Origin: Bradyrhizobium guangdongense
GTDB taxonomy: Bacteria > Pseudomonadota > Alphaproteobacteria > Rhizobiales > Xanthobacteraceae
Reading direction: 5' to 3'
DNA length: 64,000 nucleotides
Assembly: GCF_004114975.1 (NCBI RefSeq)
Contig: NZ_CP030051.1
Coordinates: 3,906,001-3,970,000, forward strand
Below the pieces are notes generated by a model. That model was not told the DNA's origin. It did no database searches and saw only the letters and a program-made list of their open reading frames with translations. A program made the position numbers and the translations under genes. Shown here piece after piece: positions 2,397 to 58,012 of this stretch (position 1 is the first letter of the stretch; every line of letters starts with the position of its first letter).

Positions 2397-2493
2397 GGGT
2401 CCCCCTTCGGCAGTCCCGCTGAACAGCCCCTTGGCACTCCTTGTCCCACGTGCTTCGCTGCCTCGCATGACACGACCATGACGAGGACAGGGG

Positions 2494-2988
2494 ATGGCCG
2501 GGCGTGACCAGCTCGACGGCGTCGATCTGAAGATAATCTCCGAACTGCAGCAGGACAGACGGGTTCGCAACAACGAGCTGGCGCTGCGCGTCGGCGTGTC
2601 CGCACCGAACTGCCTGCGGCGGCTCAAATCACTGTTCAGTCGCGGCGTGATCCGCGCGGTGCGCGCCGTCATCGACGAGCGGCTGCTCGGCTACGAGGTT
2701 GTGTCGTTCGTCTCGATCCAGCTCGGCAGCCAGGCGCAGCCGGTGCTGGAGGCGTTCGAGATGGCGATATCGGCGATCCCGCGGATCCAGCAGTGCTGGC
2801 GAATTTCGGGCGACACCGACTATCTGCTCAAATGCGTCGCGCCGAGCGTCGAGAGCATGCGCCGGCAGCTTTTGCATTTCGCGGCCATGCCGAACGTAAA
2901 GAACGTCCGCAGCTTTCCGGTGCTGGGCGTTGCGAAAGACGTGCCGCTGCCCGTGCCTGACGTCGTGGCTGCAGCATCTGCAGGTTAG
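2494..2988 (+). CDS. Lrp/AsnC family transcriptional regulator
   Basis: This 164-residue protein has a winged-helix domain at residues 5-60 (LDGVDLKIISELQQDRRVRNNELALRVGVS, then CLRRLKSL) followed by a RAM/ACT-like ligand-binding domain. The ligand-binding half carries the usual I-P-x-I-Q-x-C-W-x-I-S-G-D-x-D-Y-L-L pattern near residues 89-112. Lrp/AsnC proteins form octamers and sense amino acids. GAGGA precedes the ATG. No amino-acid gene lies next to it, so the effector cannot be named; the leucine catabolic operon 2 kb away and aapJQMP 31 kb away are possible targets only. Direct repeats and a dyad lie just downstream at 3012-3069. Confidence 0.92.
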   Translation: MAGRDQLDGVDLKIISELQQDRRVRNNELALRVGVSAPNCLRRLKSLFSRGVIRAVRAVIDERLLGYEVVSFVSIQLGSQAQPVLEAFEMAISAIPRIQQCWRISGDTDYLLKCVAPSVESMRRQLLHFAAMPNVKNVRSFPVLGVAKDVPLPVPDVVAAASAG

Positions 2989-3201
2989 GGATTTCGCGCT
3001 TCACGACAGGAATTATACAGCTTCGTGGCATTATATAGCTTACTAGATCACATAACAAAGACATGTGATTTGCGAAGTGCTGCAATGCGCTGGGCCGTGA
3101 TTGTCGGCTCATGGGCGCGGCCTACATCCGAGGTGTGAACCCTCAGCCTGCGTCGCATGCCGAGGATTGTTTTGTGGGACTCCTTAAGCAGGAAAGACAA
3201 C

Positions 3202-3498
3202 ATGACCTCGATTTCGAAGACGTTCGCAGCTTCCGCTGCGACGCTGGCTGCATCTGCGTTTCTGGTTTTGACGGCGCCGACCGCGAAGGCTGACGACTAC
3301 TGCATTACCAACGGCGCCCAGGCCGCTCACGGTTGCGGCTATCCGACCATGGAAGCCTGCCGGTCCGCAGCCGGCGGCATCGGCGGTACCTGCTCGCAGA
3401 GCGGCGGCGCGAAGACCGCCAGCGACGCGCTCGCCTTCCAGCCGAAGCAGACCAGGCACCCGAAGCTCCGTCCGGGCGCCCAGACCAACTCGAACTAA
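3202..3498 (+). CDS. DUF3551-type small secreted cysteine-containing protein
   Basis: This is 98 residues from the ATG at 3202, which has AGGAAAG 6 bases upstream; upstream in-frame starts lack one. A signal peptide covers residues 1-29 (ASAATLAASAFLVLTAPTAKA, with Ala-x-Ala cleavage before DDYC). The mature part is about 70 residues with four cysteines in the order C..C..C..C (DDYCITNG, HGCGYPT, EACRSAAGG, GTCSQ), the spacing seen in Bradyrhizobium DUF3551 proteins. Function is unknown; it is probably periplasmic with disulphides. It is followed by two hairpins and a convergent AraC gene. Confidence 0.8.
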   Translation: MTSISKTFAASAATLAASAFLVLTAPTAKADDYCITNGAQAAHGCGYPTMEACRSAAGGIGGTCSQSGGAKTASDALAFQPKQTRHPKLRPGAQTNSN

Positions 3499-51832: not shown

Positions 51833-52106
51833 GCCCGGCAGGGTACGGCCACCGGCGACAGAGATCATGCCGGGTCAACTACTGGAACGCTATCGGAAGT
51901 CGGCAGCTTGGCCAGACTTTCGCACGCTGGGTTGACCGGCCGGACGCGGCCCTATATTCGAGTGGCACCTTCGGACCGCTCCGAGGGCGTGGGGACTTCT
52001 CGGGGAACTTGTACCGTTTTCGTCAGTGTTTGTGCGTTTCGCGCAGACCATTGAGAATGGCCCAGGTCATCCTTGCCCACTGACAAACTCGTCCTTTCGA
52101 CAATGG

Positions 52107-52180
52107 GGCCACGTGGCGGAGTGGTTACGCAACGGTCTGCAAAACCGTGTACACCAGTTCAATTCTGGTCGTGGCCTCCA
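52107..52180 (+). tRNA. tRNA-Cys (anticodon GCA)
   Basis: This is a 74-base cloverleaf with encoded CCA. The acceptor arm is GGCCACG with CGTGGCC and discriminator T; the anticodon stem ACGGT/ACCGT surrounds CTGCAAA; the T-loop is TTCAATT. The anticodon GCA reads TGC/TGT. Confidence 0.97.
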
Positions 52181-52369
52181 TCGCAACTCATTGATATATA
52201 GGCAAAAAATCGGCTTGCGGACGTGCTGTCTCGCTTGTGGATGACGCCTGCGCGCGGAGCGCGGCCACCGGGTTCGCCCGGGGGTGGTTGGAAACCCCCG
52301 ATTCAGGTCGGTTGGCATAGGGTTCGCATCAACTGGGTGATGCAGTCCCAACAACGAGCTGGAGAGCAC

Positions 52370-52516
52370 GTGGGCGAGATCGTCCGATTTATCCCGAAGT
52401 CCGAGCTGGAGAGGGCTCGCCTCATTCGCGAGGCGCGCGCGATCTATGACAGCATCTTTCCGCCTGCCGCCCCCGATCGGGCGACCCAGAGCGGCGAGGA
52501 AAGCGTCAAGAGTTGA
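52370..52516 (+). CDS. Short conserved protein of unknown function
   Basis: This 48-residue protein starts at GTG 52370 with GGAGAG close upstream. It reads GEIVRFIPKSELERARLIREARAIYDSIFPP and then a polar tail. I recognise this as a short Bradyrhizobium family; the FIPKSELERxRLIREARAIYDSIFPP core is nearly invariant in my memory of it. It is probably cytoplasmic with one long helix. No function can be given. An in-frame ATG at 52340 would add 10 residues. Confidence 0.7.
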   Translation: MGEIVRFIPKSELERARLIREARAIYDSIFPPAAPDRATQSGEESVKS

Positions 52517-52566
52517 TCGCAGGATCCGGTCGTGCGCGGCCGGGTTTTAAGGCTTGGCCAGAGGAC

Positions 52567-52758
52567 TCAGGAGGCCGCGTACCAGCCGTCCGGGAAGGGC
52601 AGCAGCGGCCAGGCGCCCTCATTGTCGTTGGCGGCTTTGGGCGTCGCATCGAAGGTCCATGTATGGGGCACGAACTCCTCCGGCGCGGGCGCGAATTCTT
52701 CATGAGTCATGGCGTCACGGACCGCATCCAGCATCAAATTGAATTCGGCTTCGCTCAT
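52567..52758 (-). CDS. Small acidic protein of unknown function
   Basis: This 63-residue protein starts at the ATG at 52758, which has GGAGGG about six bases upstream, a strong signal. It is acidic with an N-terminal helix (SEAEFNLMLDAVRDAMTHEEF) and an aromatic C-terminus (HTWTFDATPKAANDNEGAWPLLPF). No domain, signal or membrane helix was recognised. A 28-base palindrome lies about 60 bases upstream. Confidence 0.68.
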   Translation of the reverse strand: MSEAEFNLMLDAVRDAMTHEEFAPAPEEFVPHTWTFDATPKAANDNEGAWPLLPFPDGWYAAS

Positions 52759-52816
52759 CACACCCTCCGGACCACGGATGGCGCACTGTCGCAAAGCCGG
52801 TTTGTTTCCCGATTGA

Positions 52817-52844
52817 CCCGATCGTTCGCATTTTAACGATCGGG
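52817..52844. promoter_or_regulatory. Perfect 28-base palindrome upstream of the small acidic protein gene
   Basis: The arms CCCGATCGTT (52817-52826) and AACGATCGGG (52835-52844) enclose CGCATTTT. It lies upstream of both the minus-strand gene at 52758 and the plus-strand gene at 53014, so it is more likely an operator or dispersed repeat than a terminator. Half-repeats (CGATCGGGATCC) follow at 52845-52856. Confidence 0.5.
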
Positions 52845-53013
52845 CGATCGGGATCCGATTGGTTAGCGATTCCTGAAAATCCCCTGGGGAACTCTAGGTT
52901 CCTACGCGACCGCGCCAGTGTGAAAGGGATCACATCTCCCCGGATTTATTCCTCTTACGTCTTTACCCACACCGGCCAAGGCAGGCTGTGTGCAGGCAGA
53001 CAGGAGACCGGTC

Positions 53014-53409
53014 ATGAAGGCGAGGTTCTTGCGGTTTGCGGGTGTGAGAAGCCGGGCGCGCCGCGCCTCGACGGTGGGGCTGTTCCTGGCTCTGTTTTCG
53101 CCTACAGCCCATGGCCAACAGGGCACGCCGGAGCCACGGCGGGCGTGCAGGGCTGACGTCTATCGACTCTGCGCTGGCGAAATCCCTGATGTCCGGCCAT
53201 CACGGCGTGCCTGCAGCGCAAACTCTCCAGCCTGAGGGAGCCGTGCGGTGTTCGATCAGGCCGGGGGAGCCGCCCTGTGGATTTGTGCGCAGCAAGTGCT
53301 TTGCGATCCGATGCAAATCCGTCTTACACCTGACGTGGATATGCTGCGGATAAGCTGTGGATCTGTGCGTATCCGACGCAGATGTAGTGGTCCTGAGAAT
53401 CATATCTGA
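53014..53409 (+). pseudogene. Decayed secreted cysteine-rich-repeat protein
   Basis: The gene begins with a strong CAGGAGA site and an ATG at 53014, a basic N-terminus and a signal peptide ending THGQQ. RACRADVYRLCAGEIPDV follows, the first half of a cysteine-rich repeat. In that frame it ends at 53235 in nonsense. From about 53195 the expected second half (ITACLQRKLSSLREPC) reads in a different frame, consistent with one missing base. Near 53248 another shift is needed to continue as VFDQAGGAALW, down to a stop at 53407-53409. Two shifts suggest a pseudogene. Alternatively, a shortened 73-residue product may still be made. The exact 3' limit is uncertain. Confidence 0.55.
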
Positions 53410-53646
53410 CAGAGTCATGACCCAGTTGAACCTGCCGGCCAAACTCACTGGTCGGGGCCACCGTCGCGCGATGAGCGAAGCCGAATTCGCCTGCGGCACT
53501 TAAGCCAACTGCAACTCCTGCGTGCAATAAGTCTTGATCGGCGGTGATCTAGAGTGACGGGCCCGCCTTGAACGCGGCCACAGGCGACAGCGACTAACCT
53601 TGGAGTGCCTCAGGATCAGTGGAACGTGATCAAGCCTCCCTCTTGT

Positions 53647-53667
53647 AAAGCACCAAAATTGTGCTTT
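53647..53667. promoter_or_regulatory. Perfect palindrome at the start of the pspA operon
   Basis: AAAGCAC (53647-53653) and GTGCTTT (53661-53667) flank CAAAATT; a further GTGCTTT follows at 53669-53675, right before the ATG at 53678. A protein bound here would cover the start site and the probable promoter -10 region, so it is a strong operator candidate. TTGTAA at 53643 could be a -35 element overlapping it. Confidence 0.55.
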
Positions 53668-53677
53668 AGTGCTTTCC

Positions 53678-54832
53678 ATGAGCCCGTCCCCCCGGAATGC
53701 GCCATCGGCGCTTCGCTACAGGCTTGCCCCTGACCCGGCCGCCAAGGCCGCCATGGAGGCGACGTTCAGGGCGTATGACCGCATGATGGAGATCCTGGAT
53801 GAGGTCGCGCGGACCCATAATGTGGGCTCCAACGTCGTGCTGCTGCATGCCCATGCCTATGAGCCGATCCGGAAAGAAACCGCACTGCCGTCCCGCCTGG
53901 TAACGCTGGGCCTGCGCGACCGCGCCGATTATCGCGCGGCGCAGGGCCGGCGGCTGCCGCTCGACGACAAGCTCGCCAAGATCAAGGGCCCGGCGACCAT
54001 TTCGATTGCAACCGTGCAAGGGCGTTTCAGCGTGCCCTTCGACTATGCCGGCTACGCGGAGGGCTGGGGCCAGAGCGTGCCCGCGCATCTGATCCGCACC
54101 GACGATGGTTTCGAGGTTCACTACGGCGTCACGCCGAACAGTCTGCCAGAGGAGGAGAACGCCATGGATACCATCGCAGCCGCTCCCGAGAATTTCCTGT
54201 CCCGGGTCGGACGTCTGATCGCCGGCATCGCCTATGACGCGATCGAGCAGGCGGAAGGCAACAACAAGCTGAAAGTGGTCGGCCAGGCCATCCGCGAGAT
54301 CGAGCGCGCCGAGAGCGAGGCGCGTGATGCGCTCGCGGCTGCGCGCGCGGAGGAATACCGCCTCAACGCGCGTCGCACCGAAATCGAACGCGAGATGACC
54401 GATCTCGCCGCCAAGATCGAGGGTGCGGTCGCCGACAGCCGCGACGATCTCGCCCGTGCCGGCATCGCCCGGCAGATGGATCTGGAGGCGCAGTTCGAGG
54501 TGCTTTCCCGCGCCATCGACGAGAACAACGAGAAGATCGAGCAATGCGTGACCTCACTGCGTGCCGTGCTCTCGGCGCTCCAGGATGCCGAGCAGCGCCG
54601 CGTTGATCTGGAAAAGAGCGAGGCGGCCGCGAGCCACCAGGCTTCGAATTCGCCGCGCAAGCGCAGCGGCGGCTCCGCGGCGGCGAAAGCGTTGCGCGCG
54701 GGCAGGGCGGTCGCGCGCGTCACCGGCGTGCCACCGGGCATTCCGTATTCGAGCGACATCGACGAACTGAGCGCGCTCCATCGCGACAAGGAGATTGCGG
54801 CGAGGCTCGCGCGGTTGAAGTCGCGCTCCTGA
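53678..54832 (+). CDS. pspA: PspA/IM30-family protein with a 162-residue N-terminal module
   Basis: The full frame encodes 384 residues. The last 222 (from the ATG at 54164) are a normal PspA: NFLSRVGRLIAGIAYDAIEQAEG, then a long coiled coil of Glu/Arg/Ala-rich helices, and a Ser/Arg-rich end. That internal ATG has GGAGGAG six bases upstream, while the first ATG at 53678 has no clear ribosome binding site. The first 162 residues hold RYRLAPDPAAKAAMEATFRAYDRMM and then ISIATVQGRFSVPFDYAGY. This looks to me like the N-terminal wedge part of a TnpB/IS605 OrfB protein without its RuvC half. PspA binds stressed inner membrane; YqiJ and flotillin genes follow. Whether one fused or two separate products are made is unknown. 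Confidence 0.85.
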   Translation: MSPSPRNAPSALRYRLAPDPAAKAAMEATFRAYDRMMEILDEVARTHNVGSNVVLLHAHAYEPIRKETALPSRLVTLGLRDRADYRAAQGRRLPLDDKLAKIKGPATISIATVQGRFSVPFDYAGYAEGWGQSVPAHLIRTDDGFEVHYGVTPNSLPEEENAMDTIAAAPENFLSRVGRLIAGIAYDAIEQAEGNNKLKVVGQAIREIERAESEARDALAAARAEEYRLNARRTEIEREMTDLAAKIEGAVADSRDDLARAGIARQMDLEAQFEVLSRAIDENNEKIEQCVTSLRAVLSALQDAEQRRVDLEKSEAAASHQASNSPRKRSGGSAAAKALRAGRAVARVTGVPPGIPYSSDIDELSALHRDKEIAARLARLKSRS

Positions 54833-54842
54833 GGTTCGTGTC

Positions 54843-55511
54843 ATGAGCGCGTTGCTCGAACACGTCATGTCGCCGGAGGTCCGGCCGTTCGCGATCGCGG
54901 CGGCCATGATCCTCATCGTCGGCACGCTCGAAGTGGTCACGATGCTGGTCGGCGCGTCGCTCAGCGAGATGCTCGGGACCAGCATCGATTTCAGCCATCC
55001 CAGTGATAACGGCGTGATCAATGCCATCTCCTGGGTCAATGTCGGCGGCGTGCCGCTGCTGATCTTCCTGCTCCTGGCGCTCGGCGCCTTCTCGATCACC
55101 GGCTTCCTGATCCAGGACGTCGCGCGGATGGTGGCCGGTCCCTTGCCCGCCTCGATCGCCTCGCTCGCTGCGATCGTCGTCTCGGTGCCGCTGGTCCGCG
55201 CCGCCAGCGGCGGCATCGCGCGGGTCATTCCCAAGGACGAGAGCTACGCGGTCGGTCTCGGCGATCTCGTCGGCCGGGTCGGGGAGGTCGTCGTCGGCCC
55301 GCTCGACCAGGGGCCGCCGGGCCGCGTCAGCGTCGCCGACATCCACGGCAACAGGCATTTCGTCCTGGCCGTGGCTGCGCCCGACTCAGCGCCGTTGCCG
55401 CAGGGGACCCTCGTGCTCCTGGTCGATCGCGTCGACACCCGTTTCGTCGCGGTGAAGGCCGATGATGAACTCAAACCGTCCAAAGCCAGTCTAAGCCAGC
55501 AAGTCCATTAG
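54843..55511 (+). CDS. YqiJ/NfeD-like membrane protein with OB-fold tail
   Basis: This 222-residue protein has three membrane helices (near residues 17-40, 72-93 and 100-120), followed by an NfeD-type OB-fold domain (residues 135-212: DLVGRVGEVVVGPLDQG, then GTLVLLVDRVDTRFVAV). It matches the YqiJ layout that accompanies YqiK-type flotillins. NfeD-like proteins help place or regulate flotillin in membrane microdomains. GAGG lies eight bases before the ATG, 10 bases after the pspA stop; the flotillin gene starts 11 bases after it. So pspA, yqiJ-like and flotillin form one operon. Confidence 0.85.
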   Translation: MSALLEHVMSPEVRPFAIAAAMILIVGTLEVVTMLVGASLSEMLGTSIDFSHPSDNGVINAISWVNVGGVPLLIFLLLALGAFSITGFLIQDVARMVAGPLPASIASLAAIVVSVPLVRAASGGIARVIPKDESYAVGLGDLVGRVGEVVVGPLDQGPPGRVSVADIHGNRHFVLAVAAPDSAPLPQGTLVLLVDRVDTRFVAVKADDELKPSKASLSQQVH

Positions 55512-55522
55512 CGGAGAAAGTC

Positions 55523-57220
55523 ATGTTCGACATCGCAGTCCCGGCCATGATCGGCGTCGCGCTGATCGTTGTCCTCGGGATCGTCTTCACTATCCTCTAC
55601 AAGCGCGCGACGCGCGACGAGGCCTTCGTCCGTACCGGCCTCGGCGGCAAGAAAGTCGTCCTCGACGGCGGCGCCATGATCCTGCCGATCTTCCACTCCT
55701 ACGCCAGCGTCAATCTGAAGACGCTGCGGCTCACCGTCGAACGCAAGGAGCGGGAATCCCTCATCACCAAGGATCGTTTGCGCGTCGATATCGTCGCCGA
55801 ATTCTACGTGCGCGTCCGCCCCGATGAGGAGAGCATCGCGCTCGCGAGCCAGACCCTGGGTGCATTGACCAACGATGCGGAAGCGCTGCGCAACCAGGTC
55901 GAAGCCAAGTTCGTCGACGGCCTGCGCTCGGTGGCCGCGACTATGACCATCCTGGAGCTCCAGGAGAAGCGCTCGGATTTCGTCAAGCATGTGCAGTCCA
56001 CGGTCGAGTCCGACGTCAAATCGAACGGCCTCGAACTCGAGTCGGTGTCCCTGACCAAGCTCGACCAGACCGACGTCAAGTTCTTCAACCCCGAAAACTT
56101 CTTCGACGCCGAAGGTCTCACCCAGCTCAAGACCATCACCGAGACTCGCCGGCGCGACCGCAACGCTATCGTCCGAGACAACGAGGTCGCGATCGCCCAG
56201 AAGGATCTGGAGGCGCGGCAGCAGACGCTCGGGATCGAACGGACCAAGAAGGAAGCGGAGCTGTCGCAGGAGCGCGATATTGCCAACAAGACCGCGAGCA
56301 CCCGCGCCGAAGTCGCAACCGCGACGCAGACCGCGCGCCTGACTGAGGAGAACGCCCGCATCGACACCGACCGTGCCGTCGCCGAGAAGGAGGCCGGCGC
56401 CAAACAGGTCAAGGAAACCGCGGTCATCGAGTCGGACCTTGCGATCAACAAACGCAAGACCGACGCCCAGCGCGAGATCCAGATCGCGACGCAGGAGAAC
56501 GAAATCCAGATCGCGGCCAAGAGCAAGCAGACCTCGGAGGCCGTTGCCGAGGCCAAGGCTGCCGAAGCGCTCGCCGTCTCCGCGGAAGAAAAGGTGGTGA
56601 CCGCACGCGCCGTCGAAGTCGCCGACCGTGCTCGTCTGACGCAGGTGCTGGCTGCCCGCACCGAAGCCGAGCGCAAATCGACCGAGCTGATCGTCGCCGC
56701 CGAAGCCGAGAAGAGGGCCTCGCTCGACCGCGCCGAGGCCGTCAAGACGCTGGCCACGGCGGAAGCCGAGTCCAACAAGATCAAGGCGGTCGGCGTCAGG
56801 AACATCGGTGAGGCAGAAGCCGCCGTCATCACCATGAAAAACGAGGCGCAGAACAAGCTCGGCAGCAACGTCATCGATTTCGAGATCGCCAAGAAGCGCA
56901 TCGAGACGATGCCGTCGGCGCTGGCCGAGATGGTGAGGCCGATTGCCAATCTGAAAGACGTTCGTATCCTGCACACCGGCGGCGCGTTTGGCGGCAACGC
57001 CAACGGAGCCGCGGGCGTCGGCTTCGGCGAAGGGCTTGCCGGCGAATTGCTCAAGGTGCACGCCCTGCGCCCGATGATCGACGAGATCCTGCGCCAGAGC
57101 GGTTTTGCGCCGGGCGACGATCCCGTGAAAGCTTTGGTCGGCGAAGTGACAGGGAAAAGCAATGGGGCCGCGGTGCCTGCGCCCACACCGCCGGATAAAA
57201 CAAACTCCGCCGATCTATGA
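55523..57220 (+). CDS. Flotillin (YqiK-like SPFH protein)
   Basis: This 565-residue protein starts at the ATG at 55523 with GGAG upstream. One N-terminal membrane segment (VPAMIGVALIVVLGIVFTILY) is followed by the SPFH/band-7 domain (residues 35-190: GGKKVVLDGGAMILPIFHSYASV, TKDRLRVDIVAEFYVRV, ELESVSLTKLDQTDVKFFNPENFFDAEGL). A long Glu/Ala-rich coiled coil comes next (200-450), then a short C-terminal region. This is the flotillin scaffold of membrane microdomains. Together with YqiJ-like and PspA proteins it suggests a membrane-stress or domain-organising unit. A strong hairpin 42 bases downstream ends the operon. Confidence 0.92.
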   Translation: MFDIAVPAMIGVALIVVLGIVFTILYKRATRDEAFVRTGLGGKKVVLDGGAMILPIFHSYASVNLKTLRLTVERKERESLITKDRLRVDIVAEFYVRVRPDEESIALASQTLGALTNDAEALRNQVEAKFVDGLRSVAATMTILELQEKRSDFVKHVQSTVESDVKSNGLELESVSLTKLDQTDVKFFNPENFFDAEGLTQLKTITETRRRDRNAIVRDNEVAIAQKDLEARQQTLGIERTKKEAELSQERDIANKTASTRAEVATATQTARLTEENARIDTDRAVAEKEAGAKQVKETAVIESDLAINKRKTDAQREIQIATQENEIQIAAKSKQTSEAVAEAKAAEALAVSAEEKVVTARAVEVADRARLTQVLAARTEAERKSTELIVAAEAEKRASLDRAEAVKTLATAEAESNKIKAVGVRNIGEAEAAVITMKNEAQNKLGSNVIDFEIAKKRIETMPSALAEMVRPIANLKDVRILHTGGAFGGNANGAAGVGFGEGLAGELLKVHALRPMIDEILRQSGFAPGDDPVKALVGEVTGKSNGAAVPAPTPPDKTNSADL

Positions 57221-57262
57221 ATGCCGGTTCATTGCTGCGGAGAATTCGAAACGTTATGAACT

Positions 57263-57296
57263 GGCTCGTTGCGCGTCTCGCGTCGCGCAACGAGCC
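57263..57296 (+). terminator. Strong hairpin after the flotillin gene
   Basis: Perfect 13-base arms GGCTCGTTGCGCG (57263-57275) and CGCGCAACGAGCC (57284-57296) enclose an eight-base loop, 42 bases after the flotillin stop. There is no T-tract, so it may be a stabilising or factor-assisted terminator. Confidence 0.6.
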
Positions 57297-57433
57297 GGGG
57301 TGCGGATCGAGGGCGTTTCGAACCTCTCGATCGCTCTCCGGACGATTTCTTCAAGGCAACGCCGTTGGTTGCCGCGGCGCCTGCGCCGATCAAGGTCAGG
57401 CGCCGGGGCCTGTTTCGATCCAGAGAATTTCAC

Positions 57434-57802
57434 ATGAAGTATTTTCTGTCTGGACTGATCGCGATCGGATTTACGATCGCCGCCGCACCATCGATCGCCG
57501 CCGACGCCCGCAACGTCACCGTGGTCAACGAGACCGGCTACGCCATCAAGTTCCTGGGCTTCAACGCACCGGACGACGGTCTGGACGAATGGGACAACGA
57601 GCTCGACAAGGTTTTGCAGAATCAGGCCAGCACCTATGTCGAGTTCGACGAGGATGACGAAGGCTGTGTCTGGAACATCCGCGTCGACTGGCAGAACTAT
57701 GACGAAGCCGTGCTCTGGAAGAACGTCAATCTCTGCAAGATGACGGCGCTTCGGCTGCGCTACGACCCCGGCACGAAGACCACGTCTTTCATCGCCGAGT
57801 AG
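57434..57802 (+). CDS. Secreted protein of unknown function
   Basis: This 122-residue protein starts at the ATG at 57434. A signal peptide spans residues 1-23 (FLSGLIAIGFTIAAAPSIAA). The mature protein starts with RNVTVVNETGYAIKFLGFNAPDD, then an acidic DEDDEGCVWNIRVDW stretch and NVNLCKMTALRLRYDPG, with two cysteines that could pair. I recall close relatives in Bradyrhizobium and Rhodopseudomonas misnamed argininosuccinate lyase; the sequence has no lyase features. The beta-strand-rich pattern suggests a small periplasmic beta domain. Downstream is a terminator-like hairpin at 57821. Confidence 0.75.
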   Translation: MKYFLSGLIAIGFTIAAAPSIAADARNVTVVNETGYAIKFLGFNAPDDGLDEWDNELDKVLQNQASTYVEFDEDDEGCVWNIRVDWQNYDEAVLWKNVNLCKMTALRLRYDPGTKTTSFIAE

Positions 57803-57820
57803 CGCGATCTGACCTGAGCG

Positions 57821-57848
57821 CGGGGAGGGCGCGATAAGTCCTTCCCCG
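57821..57848 (+). terminator. Hairpin after the secreted protein gene
   Basis: CGGGGAGGG (57821-57829) pairs with CCTTCCCCG (57840-57848) with one G-T wobble around a ten-base loop, followed by TTGCTTTG. It lies 19 bases after the stop codon. Confidence 0.6.
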
Positions 57849-57937
57849 TTGCTTTGCGAATGACGGTGAATTCGTCCTTTGCAAGCGCAATCGGCTTTGT
57901 TATACGCAGCCGCGCGCGAACGACGGGTTCGCCTTTT

Positions 57938-58012
57938 TCCTCGGTAGCTCAGCGGTAGAGCATCCGACTGTTAATCGGATGGTCGCTGGTTCGAATCCAG
58001 CCCGGGGAGCCA
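57938..58012 (+). tRNA. tRNA-Asn (anticodon GTT)
   Basis: This is a 75-base cloverleaf with encoded CCA: acceptor TCCTCGG with CCGGGGA (two G-T pairs), anticodon stem ATCCGA/TCGGAT around CTGTTAA, and T-arm CTGG/CCAG with TTCGAAT. The anticodon GTT reads AAC/AAT. Confidence 0.97.

Follow-up and report, generated by a model that had tools for sequence, protein, structure and literature searches.

An uninterrupted reading frame of 384 codons and a stop occupies positions 53678-54832 (+) of the window, that is, of the whole 64,000-nucleotide stretch of DNA that was analysed; an alternative in-frame GTG at 53669 would give a product of 387 amino acids. Two parts are joined in this frame. The first, residues 1-162 (53678..54163, +), is a module corresponding to the REC lobe of TnpB, with its folded part at approximately residues 10-151 (53705-54130). 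The second (54164..54832, +; 222 codons and stop) is a PspA/IM30-like domain with an ATG of its own, preceded by a Shine-Dalgarno-like site (approximately 54150..54157, +; GGAGGAG at 54151-54157). The initial annotation had described a single frame with this internal ATG at 54164 and the GGAGGAG ahead of it, and both were confirmed in the sequence. Downstream on the same strand are the genes for a YqiJ-like membrane protein of 222 amino acids with an OB fold (54843..55511; Pfam YqiJ_N, 69.9 bits, and YqiJ_OB, 39.1 bits) and for a flotillin of 565 amino acids (55523..57220; Pfam Flot, 100.6 bits, and Band_7, 58.4 bits). The order of this three-gene operon is fusion, YqiJ-like protein and flotillin, with the fusion first.

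The C-terminal part had been called a canonical PspA, which proved too strong a description. Residues 174-323 match Pfam PspA_IM30 with 43.0 bits (cut-off 33.9), but the score on the NCBIfam pspA equivalog TIGR02977 was 34 bits, far below the cut-off of 242.95. The Pfam cut-off itself was missed by four of the ten relatives scanned. A model of the full-length protein places helices at residues 197-252 and 256-321, a predicted long helical hairpin whose two long helices are typical of the PspA/IM30 family; overall pTM was 0.41, so the placement of the module relative to the hairpin in this model is not to be relied on.

The N-terminal module and TnpB

The earlier suggestion that the N-terminal module is the N-terminal half of a TnpB without its nuclease was borne out in profile and structure comparisons and in a blind search of genomes. 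Residues 1 to approximately 150 represent the DNA-reading REC lobe of a domesticated TnpB, the nuclease lobe having been lost. The WED and REC domains that make up this lobe are present, and the WED+REC fold, shared with TnpB proteins (IS200/IS605 OrfB) such as ISDra2 TnpB and the Mariprofundus-type protein P0122, spans the entire module. Identity to the Mariprofundus subtype is 28% over 137 columns, including the LH..AY..R..T.L helix pair. Unlike in TnpB, the RuvC nuclease half and the zinc ribbon are absent (the C-terminal half of TnpB scored 13.5), and PspA stands in their place.

Several other searches returned no TnpB. Residues 1-162 had no NCBIfam or PHROG match, and their sole Pfam match was below threshold (FGase, E 0.083). 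Sequence searches of the PDB, whether with a single sequence or with a profile, did not retrieve a TnpB. None of the Foldseek rows against the PDB attained an E value of 0.001, and the claim for the fold therefore leans on VIA-align and on the agreement among rows. Alignment with hhalign to ten other TnpBs was uninformative (Prob 2.6), and the link in sequence thus rests on the Mariprofundus-type TnpBs. We regard descent of the module from TnpB as very nearly certain.

The mean net charge of the module is +1.6, compared with +13.0 in the N-terminal halves of the nearest TnpBs. In the available text on ISDra2 TnpB, the RuvC half is described as holding the RNA scaffold together with the WED domain (PMC10097598), and the loss of positive charge in the module is consistent with loss of an RNA scaffold. 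This makes the RNA-binding role that had been proposed less likely; with so low a charge, DNA binding could have been lost too. An Rfam scan of 52000-58000 gave no match other than two tRNAs. The module is probably guide-free.

The same source places the TAM in the cleft between WED and REC, where it is recognized by three residues on a single REC helix (K76, F77 and Q80) together with Y52, S56, T123 and N124 (PMC10097598). The counterpart of this TAM-reading helix in the module is the helix at residues 72-87 (53891..53938, +), with the codon for R73 at 53894-53896. A weak alignment puts R73 near the equivalent of ISDra2 Q80; the register of R73 relative to K76 or Q80 is unsettled, and we therefore restrict the claim to the same helix region. 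Segment 69-81, which contains LPSRLVTLGLRD, is the most conserved of ten segments of the module (entropy 0.62, compared with 1.35 for the module).

Distribution of the fusion

The fusion was essentially full length in 81 of 146 Bradyrhizobium genomes. Copies within the genus show 88-100% identity or, for a second type, 51-62%, and the fusion extends beyond the genus to further families of the order and to further orders of the Alphaproteobacteria. At 153 of 154 module loci the frame stays open for at least 369 residues from the start of the module, the exception being L181, where the module stands alone. The coupling of module and PspA is not due to chance. Among the best 80 of 194 records, those with modules of 90-99% identity were nearly all named Bradyrhizobium, and the genome analysed thus appears to be one of the Bradyrhizobium group. 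One record titled Frankia sp. RB7 (L099, JAUEPE010000003.1) has a module 96% identical to that of the window, and may be a mislabelled or contaminated assembly.

Across 297 genomes of the order, 22 carried a YqiJ gene, and the module was found in 15 of those 22. Six cassettes were located on plasmids, in Rhizobium daejeonense, two Shinella, Bosea, Agrobacterium and R. leguminosarum (L182-L187). In these the three-gene cassette rides large plasmids in mostly unrelated surroundings; outside the three genes, no gene is common to all six, nor is any regulator. Both Shinella cassettes have an upstream gene of the ROK family, which includes regulators.

At L181 (G1214), the dyad described below, a stand-alone module (an open frame of 185 codons), yqiJ and flotillin follow in succession, with no match to the PspA part within the 8-kb stretch fetched. 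This arrangement indicates that module and dyad are a unit independent of the fusion. Three further module proteins of 162-223 residues (P0252, P0254 and P0260), on contigs longer than 8 kb, have no listed PspA domain, and these may be either stand-alone modules like that of L181 or truncated proteins. In one genome (G085; L218, about 2454-3476) a broken copy of the module lies beside the yqiJ-flotillin region, with no intact module, no dyad and, in the stretch fetched, no match to the PspA part.

The upstream dyad and residue 73

Upstream of the module, at 53647..53667, is an exact match to the dyad AAAGCAC-N7-GTGCTTT, a feature that the initial annotation did not mention and that we predict to be an operator. 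The exact dyad is unique in the 8.44 Mb genome (spacers 3-9 searched). All 154 module loci inspected carry a dyad of the form AAAGxAC-N7-GTxCTTT ahead of the module, with much redundancy among the loci; as several of these are the same place fetched twice, the 56 representatives (less than 95% identity, with L181 added) provide the fairer count. The operator table comprised all loci then collected except L047-L078 and L168 (TnpB, a chance match and the operator locus L078). The dyad finder covered spacers 5-8 and gave a bonus for A at the starts of the arms, and spacer 7 was the best of those tried at the 154 loci. On rechecking without the bonus, spacers 5 and 9, which have the same centre, also gave at least six pairs in 46/56 and 55/56 representatives, respectively. 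The arms were perfect (7/7) in 43 representatives, paired at 6/7 in ten and at 5/7 in three. Shuffled upstream stretches were perfect in 0.5% of cases, and because 11% of them reached six of seven pairs, each of the 13 representatives whose arms are imperfect carries less weight by itself.

The dyad was found in 81/81 genomes of the genus with a full module and in 4/65 of the others (n = 146; Fisher 8e-37, relatedness ignored). In this split, the group lacking the module includes G033 (module cut by a contig end), the broken G085 and four genomes that gave PspA-like matches alone. A reversed control pattern occurred in 8/146 genomes, and a background of dyads without a module is therefore expected; three of the four module-less genomes with a dyad (L214-L216) had no module or pspA-like frame by eye. 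All seven YqiJ genomes of the order without a module were scanned, and no such dyad was found. Five of them (L192-L196) have pspA before yqiJ, as confirmed by a profile of the PspA part, and thus provide pspA-yqiJ-flotillin operons free of the module, in 5/5 of which the dyad was not found; of the other two, L197 breaks off at a contig end and L212 lacks a match to pspA.

In four of these module-free operons (L192, L193, L195 and L196), an open frame of approximately 180 residues lies directly upstream of pspA and may encode their regulator. The product looked ribbon-helix-helix-like by eye only; Pfam scans of three of the four gave no match of that kind, and a ribbon-helix-helix regulator in place of the module is therefore not counted as evidence.

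Both arms of the dyad tend to vary jointly, with GCAC, GGAC, GGAT, GTAC-like and ACAC versions. In many lineages the dyad lies between the hexamers TTGAAA and TATnnT of a predicted promoter; these hexamers are weak in Bradyrhizobium. The distance from the end of the dyad to the first in-frame ATG is 10-12 nt in 44/50 representatives, and at L164 the first ATG is 21 nt away.

Residue 73 of the module tracks base 5 of the dyad, R occurring with C, and Q with G or T. Base 5 is C in one or both arms of all 44 representatives with R73, and in both arms of 41/44, the remaining three having T in one arm. None of the 12 representatives with Q73 has C at base 5 in either arm. Only two of 375 columns scored against base 5 were free of errors, namely residue 73, the only such column in the module, and residue 186 in the PspA part, a residue that L181 does not have. 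The rule was set down from a comparison of L040, L046 and L161-L164 with Bradyrhizobium-like loci before L173-L187 were fetched, and all 15 of these later loci, which are not mutually independent, obey it. Two of them, L174 and L181, combine R73 with GCAC inside orders in which the other module carriers found all have Q73. In a tree of the PspA part only and in a tree of the module without column 73 (trees were built from 35/55 and 36/56 representatives, with close Bradyrhizobium rows thinned), each trait changes three times. A sign test on independent pairs had two to three pairs and hence no power; three changes are too few for a significant test, and the pairing of residue and base is thus strong but not conclusive.

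The two potential starts of the fusion differ in their surroundings. The internal start is a methionine at the aligned column in 54/55 representatives, and a Shine-Dalgarno-like site of at least 4 nt precedes it in 55/55, and one of at least 5 nt in 54/55. The corresponding numbers for the first in-frame ATG after the dyad were 3/50 and 0/50, compared with baselines of 14.9% (at least 4 nt) and 4.3% (at least 5 nt) in in-frame windows. For the first start, ATG only was counted, GTG being excluded, and the 5/55 representatives in which the 60 nt following the dyad contain no in-frame ATG were omitted. This layout would suit leaderless translation from the first start and ordinary initiation at the second, and the earlier proposal of dual products from two starts now appears likely.

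A proposed regulator and its alternatives

From these computational data we infer, with a probability of roughly 0.7, that the fusion is an autoregulator, derived from TnpB but free of a guide, that is tethered to a membrane-stress protein and controls its own operon. The module would be a sequence-specific DNA-binding domain, and binding of the dyad by it seems to us quite likely. Two copies of the module, brought together in a dimer of the fusion, would hold AAAGxAC-N7-GTxCTTT in their own promoter and repress the operon, with the recognition helix (residues 70-81, carrying R73 or Q73) contacting base 5 of each half-site. On membrane damage, the fusion would be drawn into membrane-bound PspA polymers, since the chain of the module runs on into the PspA/IM30 domain, and the operator would be vacated; we would give even odds to release of this kind at the damaged membrane. 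PspA, YqiJ and flotillin would then be switched on, and the internal start, with its own ribosome site, could supply module-free PspA for repair. The role of a DNA-binding reporter put forward in the initial annotation thus gains indirect support from the dyad, with binding itself remaining putative.

The best-surviving alternative, which we nevertheless consider unlikely, is that a separate trans-acting regulator binds the dyad, and that the module serves the PspA fusion structurally or in contacts with other proteins. The near-zero net charge of the module would agree with such a role. Another small gene occupies the place of the module in L192, L193, L195 and L196, a ROK-family gene lies upstream of the two Shinella cassettes, and pspA genes tend to adjoin HTH or other regulatory genes according to the available text of a survey (PMC9239133). 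However, the six plasmid cassettes have no regulator in common, the dyad accompanies the module across the genus and persists in L181 without PspA, and it is a residue of the TAM helix that follows the operator base, within a recognition helix that is the most conserved segment of the module.

A guide RNA retained by the module and directing it to the promoter is a more doubtful explanation. It has a precedent in the TldRs, described in the available text as TnpBs with an inactivated nuclease domain that keep guide RNA and DNA binding, and as domesticated TnpBs that repress promoters via their guide RNAs (PMC13418256). The fusion is likewise a domesticated TnpB apparently controlling promoters, but the RuvC half, which in ISDra2 TnpB helps to hold the RNA scaffold, is wholly missing rather than inactivated. 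The basic charge has been lost, the Rfam scan of 52000-58000 offered two tRNAs only, and the target is a protein-type, two-fold dyad in which changes in one arm are matched in the other, as expected of a protein dimer.

The spacing between the dyad and the first in-frame ATG, 10-12 nt in most representatives, might instead point to an RNA hairpin or translational element in the leader rather than a DNA operator. We think this very improbable, because where the hexamers are good the dyad lies between them and hence upstream of any transcript from that promoter, and because the covariation with the TAM helix would be left unexplained. Decay of a functionless transposon remnant, of which the broken module in G085 could be an example, can practically be dismissed in view of the in-frame fusion and of a module conserved across three or more orders, some of its residues being invariant; in G085, moreover, neither an intact module nor the dyad was found, nor any PspA-part match in the stretch fetched.

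A DNA-binding module within the chain of PspA would set the autoregulator proposed here apart from the E. coli system, in which PspA controls the psp response through a DNA-binding partner, PspF. The PspA_IM30 domain (ESCRT-III-like) is shared, but the putative DNA-binding part of the fusion is in the PspA chain itself, and the downstream genes are yqiJ and flotillin. According to its available text, PMC11237479 links PspA with band-7/flotillin and YqiJ-like proteins, and the effector genes of those PspA-YqiJ-flotillin neighbourhoods are the same as in the operon with the module. The rare PspA architectures named there are NlpC/P60 fusions, PspAA fusions and tandem repeats, and the word 'transposase' does not occur in its main text (PMC11237479).

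Among the literature matches listed, judged by title and the start of the abstract and with subscription papers mostly outside this scope, there was no TnpB-PspA fusion or guide-free TnpB-derived regulator. For this reason, and because the nuclease half is gone, unlike in TldR, we consider the fusion new, with the reservation that DNA binding is putative. The dyad ahead of the module and the pairing of residue 73 with base 5 are newly described here. To our knowledge, the known domestications of TnpB (Cas12, TldR) retain a guide RNA. Evenly balanced, in our judgement, is the broader proposal of a new class of transcription factor, in which the TAM-reading lobe of TnpB, free of guide and nuclease, acts as a dimeric operator binder whose specificity (R73 for C:G, Q73 for other pairs) comes from TAM recognition, and in which fusion to PspA/ESCRT-III makes a one-protein switch whose repression is lifted by damage. 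If true, this would mean that the part of TnpB that reads the TAM is enough, by itself, to give rise to a conventional sequence-specific regulator, whose specificity is switched naturally by R or Q at residue 73. It would also suggest how such PspA/flotillin operons sense membrane stress, with a single chain uniting sensor, DNA-binding domain and effector and a second product from an internal start.

A third copy of the half-site, GTGCTTT (53669..53675, +), overlaps the possible GTG start at 53669 and is present in most of the close Bradyrhizobium loci displayed, where it might provide a second, overlapping operator or a means of occluding the start codon.
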